From assembly GCF_025642155.1 (NCBI RefSeq), contig NZ_CP106798.1:4650001-4714000 (forward strand): a stretch of DNA of 64,000 nucleotides. The letters are read 5' to 3'. Made by a program: the position numbers and the translations under genes. This document shows positions 7,655 to 62,730 of this stretch, piece by piece. Below the pieces are notes generated by a model, which saw only the letters and a list, made by a program, of their open reading frames with translations, was not told the origin of the DNA and did not search any database. Position 1 is the first letter of the stretch; the number at the start of each line of letters is the position of its first letter. Source of the DNA: Streptomyces sp. HUAS 15-9. GTDB lineage: Bacteria; Actinomycetota; Actinomycetes; Streptomycetales; Streptomycetaceae.

Positions 7655-8686
7655 ATGCCCATCGCAACCCCCGAGGTCTACAACGAGATGCTCGACCGGG
7701 CGAAGGCAGGCAAGTTCGCCTACCCGGCCATCAACGTCACCTCGACCCAGACCCTGCACGCGGCACTGCGCGGCTTCGCGGAGGCGGAGAGCGACGGCAT
7801 CGTCCAGATCTCCACGGGCGGCGCCGAGTTCCTGGGCGGCCAGTACAGCAAGGACATGGTGACCGGCGCGGTCGGTCTGGCCGAGTTCGCCCACATCGTC
7901 GCGGAGAAGTACCCGGTCAACGTGGCCCTGCACACGGACCACTGCCCGAAGGACAAGCTCGACGGGTACGTACGTCCGCTGATCGCGATCTCCGAGGAGC
8001 GCGTCAAGAACGGCCAGAACCCGCTGTTCCAGTCGCACATGTGGGACGGCTCGGCCGAGACCCTCGCCGACAACCTCGCCATCGCGCAGGAGCTCCTGGA
8101 GCGCACCCGCGCCGCCCGGATCATCCTCGAGGTGGAGATCACCCCGACCGGCGGCGAGGAGGACGGCGTCTCGCACGAGATCAACGACTCCCTCTACACC
8201 ACGGTCGAGGACGCCATCCGCACCGCCGAGGCGCTCGGCCTGGGTGACAAGGGTCGTTACCTGCTGGCCGCGTCCTTCGGCAACGTGCACGGTGTGTACA
8301 AGCCGGGCAACGTCGTGCTCCGCCCCGACTTGCTGAAGCAGCTGAGCGAGGGCGTCGCCGCCAAGTTCGGCAAGCCGGCCGGCTCGCAGCCGTTCGACTT
8401 CGTCTTCCACGGCGGCTCCGGCTCCACGCCGGAGGAGATCGCGACCGCGCTGGAGAACGGCGTCGTGAAGATGAACATCGACACGGACACGCAGTACGCG
8501 TTCACGCGCCCCGTGGCCGCCCACATGTTCCAGAACTACGACGGCGTCCTGAAGGTCGACGGCGAGGTCGGCAACAAGAAGACCTACGACCCGCGCACCT
8601 GGGGCAAGGCCGCCGAGGGCTCGATGGCCCAGCGCGTCATCCAGGCCACGCAGGACCTGCGGTCGGCCGGTACGAAGATCAAGTAA
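7655..8686 (+). CDS. fba: Class II fructose-bisphosphate aldolase
   Basis: This zinc-dependent enzyme cleaves fructose 1,6-bisphosphate to glyceraldehyde 3-phosphate and dihydroxyacetone phosphate. Class II features visible are HTDHCPKD (metal-binding His, near residue 93), the glycine-rich FHGGSGS and NIDTDTQYAF. The 343-residue length matches the long actinobacterial type. AAGGAGCGG precedes the ATG. It is followed by a perfect terminator and is probably monocistronic. Confidence 0.95.
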   Translation: MPIATPEVYNEMLDRAKAGKFAYPAINVTSTQTLHAALRGFAEAESDGIVQISTGGAEFLGGQYSKDMVTGAVGLAEFAHIVAEKYPVNVALHTDHCPKDKLDGYVRPLIAISEERVKNGQNPLFQSHMWDGSAETLADNLAIAQELLERTRAARIILEVEITPTGGEEDGVSHEINDSLYTTVEDAIRTAEALGLGDKGRYLLAASFGNVHGVYKPGNVVLRPDLLKQLSEGVAAKFGKPAGSQPFDFVFHGGSGSTPEEIATALENGVVKMNIDTDTQYAFTRPVAAHMFQNYDGVLKVDGEVGNKKTYDPRTWGKAAEGSMAQRVIQATQDLRSAGTKIK

Positions 8687-8760: not shown

Positions 8761-10233
8761 ATGCCCGATGTCCGGCTGGCCTCGTCGCAGGGCAGGTGGA
8801 TCCTGCTCACCACGGTGCTCGGCTCCAGCATGGCCATGCTGGACTCGACCGTCGTCAACGTGGCCCTGCCGCGCATCGGTGAGGACCTGGACGCGAGCCT
8901 GGCCGCGCTCCAGTGGACGGTCAACGCGTACATGGTGACGTTGGCGGCCCTGATCCTGCTGGGCGGCTCGCTCGGCGACCGCTACGGCCGCCGGAAGATC
9001 TTCGTGCTGGGCGTGGTCTGGTTCGCCACGGCGTCCCTGCTGTGCGGGCTCGCCCCGAACGCCACGGTCCTCATCGCCGCCCGCGCCCTCCAGGGCATCG
9101 GCGGCGCCCTCCTCACACCGGGCTCCCTCGCCCTGATCCAGGCCTCTTTCCACCCGGACGACCGGGCCAAGGCCGTCGGCCTGTGGTCGGGGTTCGGCGG
9201 CGTCGGTGCGGCCGTGGGCCCGTTCCTGGGCGGCTGGCTGGTGGACGGTCCCGGCTGGCGCTGGGTGTTCCTGCTGAACGTCCCGCTGGCCGTCGTGTGC
9301 GCCCCCGTCGCCGTACGGCACGTGCCCGAGTCGTCCGACGGAGGCGGCCACGGCCGCTTCGACGTCCTCGGCGCGACCCTGGGCGCCCTGGCGCTGGCCC
9401 TGGTGACCTACGCGCTGATCGAGGCGCCGGGCGGGTCGGTCCTGGTAGCCATCACCGCAGTGGCGGGCGTGGCGGCCGCGGTGGCCTTCGTATACGTGGA
9501 GAAGCACCGCTCCGACCCGATGATGCCGCTCGACATTTTCTCGTCGCGCCAGTTCACGGCAGTCAACCTGGTCACCCTGTGCGTGTACGCGGCCTTCAGC
9601 GGCTTCTTCTTCCTCACCGCGCTCCAGCTCCAGGTCGTGGCCGGGTACTCGGCCCTGCAGGCCGGTACGGCACTGCTGCCGACCACGGTCCTGATGCTGC
9701 TGTTCTCGGCCCAGTCCGGCGCCCTGGCCGACCGCATCGGCCCCCGCATCCCGCTTACCGTCGGTCCGCTGCTGTGCGCCGTCGCGATGCTGCTGATGCT
9801 GCGGGTGGGCAAGGACGCGAACTATCTGACCGACGTGCTCCCCGCCCTGCTGGTCATGGGTACCGGCATGGTCACCCTGGTCGCCCCGCTGACCGCCACC
9901 GTCCTCGCCTCCGTGGACACCGCGCGGGCGGGCCTGGCCAGCGGCATCAACAACGCGGCGGCCCGCGCGGCCGGCCTGATCGCGGTGGCCGCGCTGCCCC
10001 TGCTGACCGGGATGGGCCCGGAGGCGTACCGCTCTGCGGACGCCTTCGAGACGTCGTTCCGCAGGGCGATGCCGATCTGCGCGGCGGTACTGATCGCCGG
10101 GGCGATCCTGGCCTTCACCCTGGTACGCCGACCACCCCCGGACTGCCGCCACCCCGAATGCCGCACCCACGGCTGCGTGACGGCACCCCCACTGGAACGG
10201 GGGCCGGCTTCATCCGGCCGGCTCGGTAAGTGA
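8761..10233 (+). CDS. DHA2-family MFS multidrug efflux transporter
   Basis: A 490-residue proton-driven exporter of the 14-helix DHA2 (EmrB/QacA) family. The family signature LDSTVVNVALPRIGEDL is at about residues 25-41, WTVNAYMVTLAALILLGG follows, then the loop motif GDRYGRRKIF. It probably exports drugs or a self-made metabolite; no adjacent regulator shows which. The ATG at 8761 leaves only a short leader after the fba terminator. The 3' side runs straight into a large repeat array. Confidence 0.85.
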   Translation: MPDVRLASSQGRWILLTTVLGSSMAMLDSTVVNVALPRIGEDLDASLAALQWTVNAYMVTLAALILLGGSLGDRYGRRKIFVLGVVWFATASLLCGLAPNATVLIAARALQGIGGALLTPGSLALIQASFHPDDRAKAVGLWSGFGGVGAAVGPFLGGWLVDGPGWRWVFLLNVPLAVVCAPVAVRHVPESSDGGGHGRFDVLGATLGALALALVTYALIEAPGGSVLVAITAVAGVAAAVAFVYVEKHRSDPMMPLDIFSSRQFTAVNLVTLCVYAAFSGFFFLTALQLQVVAGYSALQAGTALLPTTVLMLLFSAQSGALADRIGPRIPLTVGPLLCAVAMLLMLRVGKDANYLTDVLPALLVMGTGMVTLVAPLTATVLASVDTARAGLASGINNAAARAAGLIAVAALPLLTGMGPEAYRSADAFETSFRRAMPICAAVLIAGAILAFTLVRRPPPDCRHPECRTHGCVTAPPLERGPASSGRLGK

Positions 10234-10319
10234 GGAGGGGTGCGCGGGGTGGGGTGTGCGGGGTGGGGTGTGCGGCGCGGTGTGCGGTGCGGTGTCTGAG
10301 GCCGCTTGTCCGCGGACGA

Positions 10320-10862
10320 GGCATGCCGTCCCGATCCCCCACCCACCCGCAGGGGACGGCATGGCTCGGGCGAATCCAGCCTGTGCGGCGTCCGAGGATG
10401 AGGAGTGCCGTCCCGACCCCCACCCACCCGTGGGGGCGGCGTGGCTCGGCCGGTGCGGTGCTTGGGGACGAGATGTGCCGTCCCGAACCGCCACCCACCC
10501 GGAGGGGTGGGCATGGCTCGGGCGAATCCAGCCTGTGGGGCGTCCGAGGATGAGGAGTGCCGTCCCGACCCCCACCCACCCGTGGGGGCGGCGTGGCTCG
10601 GCCGGTGCGGTGCTTGGGGACGAGATGTGCCGACCCGAACCGCCACCTACCCGCAGGGGACGGCATGGCCCGGCCGAATCCAGCCTGTGGGGCGTCCGAG
10701 GATGAGGAGTGCCGTCCCGACCCCCACCCACCCGTGGGGGCGGCGTGGCTCGGCCGGTGCGGTGCTTGGGGACGAGATGTGCCGTCCCGAACCGCCACCC
10801 ACCCGCAGGGGACGGCATGGCCCGGCCGAATCCAGCCCGTCCGGCGTTTGAGGACGAGGCCG
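10320..10862. repeat. 152-bp tandem array of alternating hairpins, 3.5 copies
   Basis: The 731-base gap between the efflux pump and the DUF3151 gene is dominated by a tandem array with an exact 152-bp period. Each unit holds two hairpin modules. Module B (TGCCGTCCC pairing with GGGGACGGCA) starts at 10324, 10476, 10628 and 10780; module A (CCCCCAC pairing with GTGGGGG) starts at 10406, 10558 and 10710. The B-A spacing is 82 and the A-B spacing 70. Linkers resemble diverged copies of the element at 10826-10858 (core CCGTCCGGCGTTTGAGGAC), so the array looks like an amplified dispersed repeat. 152 is not a multiple of three and all frames stay open, so it is unlikely to encode protein. Bases 10234-10319 are GT-rich low-complexity sequence. 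Confidence 0.9.
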
Positions 10863-10882
10863 TTCAGGCCGACAGCGGGGTT

Positions 10883-10901
10883 CTGGGGGCGCAGCCCCCA
10901 G
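10883..10901. terminator. Hairpin at the end of the repeat array
   Basis: CTGGGGGC-GCA-GCCCCCAG forms an 8-bp stem with a 3-base loop just after the last array unit. Similar hairpins follow dispersed repeats in Streptomyces, and a related one is at 51357-51375. Confidence 0.55.
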
Positions 10902-10964
10902 GAAGTGGGCGGCACCCGCCGCTCCCACCTGCCGACCCCCGGAGGGATCCCGCAGACTTGGGGC

Positions 10965-11378
10965 ATGAGCATTCACGAGAACCTCCTCGGCGGCCCGCCC
11001 CCCACCCACCTCCCCGACGACCCGGAGCCCCGCGAGCTGCTCGCGCAGGGCACGGCGCCGGCGGATGTCGCCGCGAAGTACCCGACCTCCTCGCTCGCCT
11101 GGGCCCAGCTGGCCGACGACGCGTTCGAGCGGGGCTCGGTCGTCGAGTCGTACGCCTACGCCCGTACGGGCTACCACCGCGGCCTGGACGCGCTGCGCCG
11201 CAACGGCTGGAAGGGCCACGGCCCCGTCCCCTGGGAGCACGAGCCGAACCGCGGCTTCCTGCGCGCCCTGCACGCCCTCGCTCGCGCCGCACAGGCGATC
11301 GGTGAGCAGGAGGAGTACGAGCGCTGCACGCAGTTCCTGAAGGACTCGTCGCCGACGGCCGCCCAGACCCTGGGCTGA
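10965..11378 (+). CDS. DUF3151 family protein
   Basis: A 137-residue soluble protein of the actinobacterial DUF3151 family, function unknown. It is rich in helices (SSLAWAQLADDAFERGSVVESYAYARTGYHRGLDALR resembles a TPR-like helical pair, given here as a description rather than a domain call). The ATG at 10965 follows a GGAGGGATCC segment about 20 bases upstream. It is flanked by the repeat array and by a terminator, so is probably transcribed alone. Confidence 0.8.
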   Translation: MSIHENLLGGPPPTHLPDDPEPRELLAQGTAPADVAAKYPTSSLAWAQLADDAFERGSVVESYAYARTGYHRGLDALRRNGWKGHGPVPWEHEPNRGFLRALHALARAAQAIGEQEEYERCTQFLKDSSPTAAQTLG

Positions 11379-30412: not shown

Positions 30413-30822
30413 CTCCAGCCCGGGTCAGAAGCGAGCGAGCGGCCCGGAAAGACGGGTGGCCAACAGAGTTCACGGGCAACCGTCGGCTGCGTCCCGGGAC
30501 CGGGGCGATGGGGCGCGGCGGCGGGGTGGTGGCACGCCGGGTGGGCTCAGCGGCTTGAGGCCGGTGGGCGCGGGGGCACGCCGGGTGGGTTTGGCGGCTT
30601 GCGGGTGGTGGGTGGGGTGGGGTGGGCGTCGGGTGGGCTCAGCGGCTTGAGGCCGGTGGGCGGGGACGCGACAACCGGGGCCGGGGCACCGGGTCGGCTC
30701 GGCGGGTCATGGCCGGTGGGGGTGGGGTGCGGGGGCTGGGTGGTGCCACCACCGCGCTGACGCGCGCCCCGCCCCCACCGGCCGCAAGTCGCTGAGCCGG
30801 CCCGGCGTGAACGCCACTCGCC
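30413..30822. repeat. G-rich intergenic region with 30-bp direct repeats
   Basis: This stretch without a convincing gene is strongly G-skewed on the plus strand. A 30-bp segment starting GTGGGCTCAGCGGCTTGAGG occurs at 30541-30570 and 30633-30662, with diverged versions between and after. Runs of three or four G separated by one or two bases at 30603-30627 could form a G-quadruplex. It probably includes the promoter for the gene at 30823. Confidence 0.7.
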
Positions 30823-62675: not shown

Positions 62676-62710
62676 TACGGACTACGGACTACGGACTACG
62701 GACTACGGAC
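62676..62710. repeat. Heptanucleotide repeat (TACGGAC) x5
   Basis: Five perfect copies of the 7-bp unit TACGGAC lie 21 bases after the stop of the minus-strand metallophosphoesterase gene and 64 bases before the Pr6Pr start. Perfect short tandem arrays tend to change copy number, so length may vary between strains. Confidence 0.9.
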
Positions 62711-62730
62711 TGCTCCCGGCCCCCGGCCGA

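Follow-up and report, generated by a model that had tools for sequence, protein, structure and literature searches.

A polar tandem array beside a copy of a dispersed Streptomyces repeat, downstream of an efflux-transporter gene

REP, REPIN and BIME sequences, as portrayed in excerpts of two papers, are short palindromic repeats that are dispersed, mostly extragenic and also found in tandem arrays, and in these respects they resemble the Streptomyces repeats described here (PMC3116915, PMC4681348). Arrays in P. fluorescens SBW25 contain two REP types in alternation, at 112 and 72 bp (PMC3116915, in part), a layout that recalls the 82/70-nt dimers of the array reported below, and RNA of S. coelicolor and E. 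coli contains short, abundant palindrome transcripts, many of them in 3' untranslated regions (3' UTRs), that are probable decay intermediates (PMC4681348, in part). MITEs and Rickettsia palindromic elements are comparable with the present family in length (about 100 to 250 nt), in residing in frame within genes and in being present or absent between relatives, as far as the excerpt of PMC10969869 goes. Term-seq of S. clavuligerus revealed 3' ends with a strong hairpin and no U tract ('HS-U-lack', I-shaped), and the same excerpt allows that such U-less hairpin ends may also be Rho-dependent transcript ends (PMC8269248).

The locus that we compare with these systems lies in a 64-kb window, the whole stretch of Streptomyces sp. 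HUAS 15-9 DNA that was analysed, and holds a 152-nt tandem array of 3.5 dimer units at 10324..10859 on the + strand. We give a probability of roughly 60% to the reading that this array arose by lineage-specific expansion of H-A units, repeated in tandem upstream of a dispersed A-T copy, which is itself probably a U-less terminator or 3'-end protector; H, A and T denote the sequence modules introduced below.

Genes on the + strand run from a class II fructose-bisphosphate aldolase (7655-8686) through an MFS transporter (8761..10233) and the array to a DUF3151 gene (10965..11378; PF11349, 205 bits) and a tryptophan 2,3-dioxygenase, whose model score falls slightly below its cut-off. An initial sequence-only reading of this DNA had placed the array behind an efflux-pump gene, and rightly so, as the transporter, which is in the ORF list, scores 265 bits against NCBIfam TIGR00711 (DHA2/EmrB; cut-off 230) and also matches MFS_1. 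A G-rich 14-nt tandem repeat (10237..10286; TRF, 3.6 copies) sits directly between the MFS stop codon and the array. On the other side, the hexamer CAGACT (10953..10958, + strand) resembles a -10 element and stands immediately 5' of the DUF3151 start codon; it belongs to the best conserved stretch upstream of the gene, conservation being highest in the CAGACTGGA-like sequence, and YASACTK is found in the last 22 nt before the start in 58 of 79 orthologues. We infer that the DUF3151 gene probably has its own, near-leaderless promoter, in which case it would need insulation from the MFS transcript. Elsewhere in the window, TRF also lists a 44-nt unit repeated 2.9 times (30531-30662) and a perfect TACGGAC heptamer repeated 5.1 times (62676-62711).

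The array has the order A1 B1 A2 B2 A3 B3 A4 and was recovered by TRF, by a repeat search and by self-identity. TRF gives a period of 152 nt, 3.5 copies, 94% matches, 0 indels and a score of 946; the repeat search finds 242-nt copies starting at 10314, 10466 and 10618, spaced 152/152; and self-identity at a shift of 152 is 0.943, whereas 200 dinucleotide shuffles, over all shifts tested, reached 0.446 at best. Two related monomers, A (82 nt) and B (70 nt), some 70% identical, make up the dimer of each unit, and the 82/70 sub-spacing is exact, so that both the 152-nt period over 3.5 units and the fixed spacing within the unit that had been read from the letters hold true. In every monomer a diverged A box comes after an H module, which is composed of CCGTCCCGAnCCCCCACCCACCC and a 3' arm that varies; this agrees with the earlier view that the linkers represent divergent versions of the dispersed element that lies at the array's right end. 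The A halves lie at 10324..10405, 10476..10557, 10628..10709 and 10780..10861 (A1 to A4) and the B halves at 10406..10475, 10558..10627 and 10710..10779 (B1 to B3), all on the + strand. In A4 the H module continues into a canonical terminal A box (10836..10858, + strand), an exact copy of the dispersed 23-mer with 0 mismatches, which runs on into GCCGTTCAGGCC and then the T hairpin at 10881-10903. Two smaller features of the + strand were read directly from the sequence, namely a shrunken A-box remnant at the left edge of the array (TTGTCC..GGACGAGG; 10306..10321) and a small GGCC..GGCC inverted repeat of the A-T module (10858..10870). A coding repeat was rejected because 152 is not a multiple of 3 and the reading frame is lost from unit to unit; the ORFs listed across the array are, in our view, those to be expected of GC-rich DNA.

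No base differs among the three 70-nt B halves, which supports the proposed amplification in the form of a local multiplication of dimers, while among the four A halves 69 to 76 of the 82 bases (84-93%) agree. Identical B halves could in principle have been mis-copied by an assembler; an assembly artefact, or a collapsed or expanded repeat, is nevertheless hardly credible here, given that the A halves differ at 6 to 13 of 82 sites and that the genome consists of 3 contigs with 100% completeness.

The sequence-only reading had described seven hairpins. Seven H modules are present, but their stems differ: A1 and A4 carry a perfect 9-bp stem, TGCCGTCCC/GGGACGGCA (in A1 at 10324-10332/10353-10361), A3 has a 9-bp stem with one mismatch, A2 has lost the 9-bp stem and has a shifted 7-bp stem instead, and B1-B3, being the same sequence, have an inner 7-bp stem, CCCCCAC/GTGGGGG. 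The idea that the seven H hairpins do the work themselves, as a structured multi-hairpin RNA or a train of terminators, draws on the strong stems of A1, A4 and B1-B3 and on the folding of the whole array as RNA, which surpasses shuffles only slightly, with a z score of -1.86 on the + strand and -0.51 on the - strand. It is nonetheless very unlikely in view of how its parts behave. Folded singly, A1, B1, A2, A3 and A4 give z scores of -0.11, +0.24, -1.61, +0.78 and -0.90 (B2 and B3 equal B1), and thus four of the five separately folded units (A1, B1, A3 and A4, from 0.78 to -0.90) are no better than shuffles. Across 34 loci the H stems do not co-evolve, the module's own 3' arm giving a mean of -13.43 kcal/mol and swapped arms -12.88 (sd 0.49). 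The mean z score of 62 H sequences is -1.08 against simple shuffles, several copies elsewhere being almost without a hairpin, and no Rfam family was found in 10000-11100, where the best hit, Guanidine-III, scores 16.5 bits against a gathering score of 36 (E 0.97). On the folding of array and units and the non-coevolving stems, the multi-hairpin RNA was rejected as the main reading, and this part of the earlier interpretation found no support.

What is conserved in H is the 23-mer (0.93 of consensus), itself the search probe, and not the 3' arm (0.55). Together with several BLAST matches of the 152-nt unit that span only about its first 30 nt, this would fit an array acting at the DNA level, with the 23-mer (complement GGGTGGGTGGGGGNTCGGG, four G tracts) as a putative G-quadruplex/i-motif or protein site whose seven copies would titrate or recruit something. 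We regard such a role as improbable, since H is not found in 57 of the 69 genomes that carry A boxes and the four C tracts are kept in only 4 of the 7 H modules of the window array; a G-quadruplex array was rejected on the latter count.

A search of other Streptomyces genomes, suggested along with the sequence-only reading, did find related units: 12 of 150 genomes contain H modules with no more than 1 mismatch, at 75 places by listed counts, and all 12 also carry the A box (chance 5e-5). A looser H pattern gave 71 matches in 278 loci, 62 of them with an adjoining A box (at most 5 mismatches), and the 152-nt unit as a BLAST query matched 16 of 100 genomes, its own included. Outside the genus this query had two matches, of 25 and 27 nt (E 2e-4 and 7e-4), which are too short and weak to count, and we claim the H-A family only within Streptomyces.

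Thirteen arrays with at least two H modules, from seven genomes (our own, G000, and G001, G007, G011, G022, G049 and G160), are polar in the same sense. Thirteen is a lower bound, with at least one more listed array (G007, around 8688721) outside the count, and the H pattern used for it matches only the four A-type modules in the window. In 13 of 13 arrays the terminal A box has 0-1 mismatch to the consensus and is followed by a T match (pattern with at most 5 mismatches), while the 27 internal A boxes depart further from it, by 1-7 mismatches with a median of 5 (Mann-Whitney p 4e-7, with copies within an array non-independent); internal A boxes in L022 and L212 are one mismatch from the consensus and not degenerate. 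The preceding gene, as called by our own script, runs in the direction of the array in 12 of 13 cases, the exception being L021, where the array lies in a CobB frame, and flanking gene directions are '++' in 10 arrays and '+-', open-ended '+' and '--' in one each. Closure of a polar array by a single hairpin module distinguishes these arrays from REP/REPIN arrays. Identity of internal units averages 0.84 within arrays (7 arrays; lowest 0.70, in L021) and 0.66 between arrays (maximum 0.78), and the terminal 70-nt A-T stretch is on average 0.85 identical between arrays (0.73-0.99). Judging by these identities, homogenisation seems to act locally on the H-A units and genus-wide on A-T.

The A box reaches far beyond the arrays. 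At no more than 1 mismatch it was found at 1235 sites in 69 of 150 Streptomyces genomes, with 0-172 copies per genome, and a reversed-pattern control gave 0 in all 150. Our own genome has it at 10 places (at most 3 mismatches), one of them this array and 9 elsewhere. Genome G118 has 216 A boxes (at most 2 mismatches) in one 8.3 Mb contig, with close pairs, both direct and inverted, among the first 100 places listed. Since the H 23-mer and the A box served as search probes, part of their observed conservation is built in, which does not apply to T, the 3' arms or the gene context, none of which was used as a probe. A-T often comes with a further END module, GGGACGGGTAGGGGCGGCGGGGGCGA, which is missing at this array. 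In the open-licence literature we found no published name for the A-box/T/END family, and one may exist elsewhere. The A-T-END element of locus L036 gave one weak plasmid match and no phage match, and mobile-element cargo was rejected on this result.

With respect to genes, 123 of 142 distinct A boxes lie in gaps, 6 inside called genes and 13 unresolved at locus edges. The gaps are codirectional for 67, convergent for 53 and divergent for 3 of these 123, and the upstream gene has the A box's own direction in 96. When only gaps of 60 nt or more are considered, those with an A box are divergent in 3 of 90 cases and those without one in 26 of 79, and single elements in codirectional gaps show a mild orientation bias (43 vs 24). 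Because the loci were picked for A boxes and genes were called by a codon-usage script trained on the window, these data show avoidance of promoter regions and not a rate; the DUF3151 loci (L049-L128, L159-L188) were left out of the count, to which two genomes (G049, G118) contributed at least 60 loci. Avoidance of divergent gaps would equally follow from purging of insertions in promoters.

The T hairpin (10881-10903, + strand), found by folding and lying beyond the stretch to which the sequence-only reading applied, has a 10-bp GC stem, a 3-nt loop and no U tract; no canonical (U-tract) intrinsic terminator was found in 10150-11050. A T core, GGGGC-N2-6-GCCCC flanked by enough sequence for six further bases, follows 128 of 169 distinct A boxes at a distance of up to 75 nt; the other 41 have no usable core in that range, and the bare core occurs in 39 of 3000 random control stretches. 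Outward pairs 1-3 beyond the core, which played no part in selecting the copies, are paired in 123, 116 and 119 of the 128 (shuffle maxima 114, 97 and 113), while the fourth and sixth positions are at shuffle level and the fifth pairs less often than shuffles. As the copies are related by descent, the shuffles overstate significance, whereas two-sided changes are direct, and at the second outward pair these are T-A in 82, C-G in 19 and A-T in 7 copies. As judged from these sequences, the T stem covaries across the family. Folded alone, the T region surpasses shuffles only modestly, with a z score of -1.17 on the + strand and -0.34 on the - strand, and of -2.12 together with the A box.

A terminator or mRNA-end role, one of the proposals of the sequence-only reading, stays plausible, with the difference that the evidence points to this hairpin and not to the seven hairpins of the array. 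Like the U-less Streptomyces 3' ends, T is a strong GC hairpin near a gene's 3' end; unlike them, it is known from sequence only, while the S. clavuligerus ends come from Term-seq and are not described as a repeat family in the excerpt (PMC8269248). The palindrome-derived 3' UTR transcripts cited above are compatible with a role of T as a 3'-end hairpin, within the portion of that source used here (PMC4681348). Together with array polarity and the location of A-T mainly after stop codons, T covariation suggests that A-T probably works at gene ends. Against this stand the lack of a U tract, the modest folding of the T region, the mild orientation bias in codirectional gaps, the 41 A boxes with no usable T core, the near-consensus internal A boxes of L022 and L212, and the copies in open frames, where a terminator would be harmful.

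Two genes illustrate such copies. In our own genome (G000:C1:690254-692116, L005), A-T-END lies in one open frame joining SoxD to Fer2_4/oxidoreductase domains, which presumably belong to a SoxA-type subunit, and G049 (L189) has the same SoxD-A-T-END-SoxA-type arrangement. The element would encode the peptide ARPAFEDEA...DGTGRGGGGE, which suggests a predicted, repeat-made fusion. In CobB (cobyrinate a,c-diamide synthase), the CbiA and GATase_3 domains are joined by a linker made of the element in several species (L141, L158, L131, L279-L308); A box and END are both in the linker in 10 of 30 loci by a strict script, the linker being undelimited in several others, and the element is there in more than 10 of the 30 by eye. 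Of 37 CobB proteins, 28 seem to carry the element (484-514 aa) and 9 to lack it (458-462 aa); some close relatives lack the element, and both kinds occur under the name S. coeruleorubidus. In G022 (L299) an H-A array of 510 nt lies in frame within the CobB linker, and the same stretch in G007 (L291), extracted as 298 nt, is not in frame, which may reflect a wrong boundary or a frameshift. In L283, L285 and L290, inspection by eye suggests a second palindrome (TCCCCC...GGGGGACCCCCA) nested in the A box of the linker with the frame kept.

In-frame insertion into coding genes, as in the CobB and SoxD-SoxA open frames with their predicted translation, likens the family to Rickettsia palindromic elements in behaviour only. 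An inverted form that recalls MITEs, in so far as the excerpt describes them (PMC10969869), can be made out by eye in L060 (END/T/A...A/T/END), but many copies, as well as this array, look one-armed. Unlike MITEs, the family lies mainly behind genes, no parent transposon was identified, and no target-site duplication is visible at the one pair compared, the filled CobB of G009 (L279) and the empty CobB of G162 (L280), which are 95% identical over the query part and in which about 39 nt of linker have been replaced.

Y1 transposases (PF01797) are encoded in 47 of 150 genomes, 31 of the 69 with A boxes versus 16 of the 81 others (p 0.0014, kinship uncorrected), a profile that includes other Y1 transposases besides RAYT. 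They are absent from 8 of the 19 genomes with at least 20 A boxes, and despite the positive association RAYT is a doubtful candidate for the mover; we conclude that a Y1 transposase would not be needed to keep the family. The A-T family shares two REP features, being a short palindromic repeat dispersed in many copies (A boxes in 69 of 150 genomes, a covarying T stem) and predominantly extragenic (exceptions include the CobB and SoxD-SoxA frames). In view of these mixed RAYT counts we do not class it as a REPIN member; high-copy genomes without PF01797 and copies in open frames set it apart from REP/REPIN.

It is possible, though we think it unlikely, that the family is a selfish or neutral REP/MITE-like repeat tolerated at gene ends and in linkers, and that the array is a by-product of recombination without effect on its neighbours. 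Patchy copy number, copies residing in frame within CobB and between the SoxD and SoxA-type domains, presence and absence of the CobB element within one named species and the weak transposase association all agree with this. T-stem covariation and array polarity, however, suggest that something maintains A-T, the high-copy genomes without PF01797 fit such a repeat poorly, and the filled and empty CobB pair shows replacement of part of the linker and not a clean insertion.

At the locus itself, the order MFS-gap-DUF3151 is kept at 65 of the 80 named loci, and contig ends truncate some of the remaining 15; the gaps measure 2-2015 nt (median 162). Among these 65 syntenic gaps of named species, 8 contain an A box and none an array of H modules; L076 has a single H module flanked by A boxes, the only such case, and L066 one H-pattern match with no A box nearby. 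Thirty further loci, the closest by DUF3151-region DNA from 392 genomes (best 90% outside our own genome), have the MFS gene in reach in 28 cases, or 27 excluding our own genome, and of these 27 gaps, two contain an A box (at most 3 mismatches) and none an H module beside an A box. Conservation of the array at the locus was therefore rejected. Absence from other assemblies had been named beforehand as a possible sign of an assembly error, and the outcome is mixed: the array is absent from the 65 and 27 syntenic gaps, yet comparable arrays exist in six other genomes, which makes an assembly error unlikely. The gap looks repeat-prone, since unrelated tandem repeats occupy it in other species (L054, L066 and L168, by eye; L111, also by self-identity). 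Several copies of a GGTCGCGCAGTTCCCCGCGCCCCT-like repeat are visible by eye in the gaps of L054, L168, L121 and L050.

Our preferred reading of a tandem expansion beside A-T can be put as follows. At a gene end, RNA polymerase or 3' exonucleases would encounter A-T as a strong hairpin lacking a U tract. The H-A units upstream of A-T, free to duplicate because their exact form would matter little, may have multiplied by slippage or unequal crossing-over/recombination, first forming the 82+70 dimer and then the 152-nt copies, and would be homogenised locally, while the terminal A-T copy would stay similar to the genus-wide family. The array would then mainly lengthen the 3' region of the efflux gene, and A-T would stand as a boundary between the efflux transcript and the promoter-like sequence that belongs to the DUF3151 gene itself. 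As a tentative and rather doubtful extension, A-T might be an unnamed, widespread mobile gene-end cassette that supplies new genes with a terminator or 3'-end protector and can also serve as an in-frame linker, with H-A satellites that tune the length of the preceding 3' UTR.

If A-T is a terminator or 3'-end protector, numerous sites in numerous Streptomyces genomes (1235 A boxes among the 150) would receive their gene-end signals from one dispersed family, in a genus of industrial importance. The polar arrays would form a natural length series for testing the effects of 3' UTR length, and in CobB and SoxD-SoxA there would be a high-GC parallel to the palindromic elements that Rickettsia carries in frame. 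Should nothing about the family prove functional, it would still explain many intergenic repeats of Streptomyces and advise caution in reading such arrays as structured RNAs.
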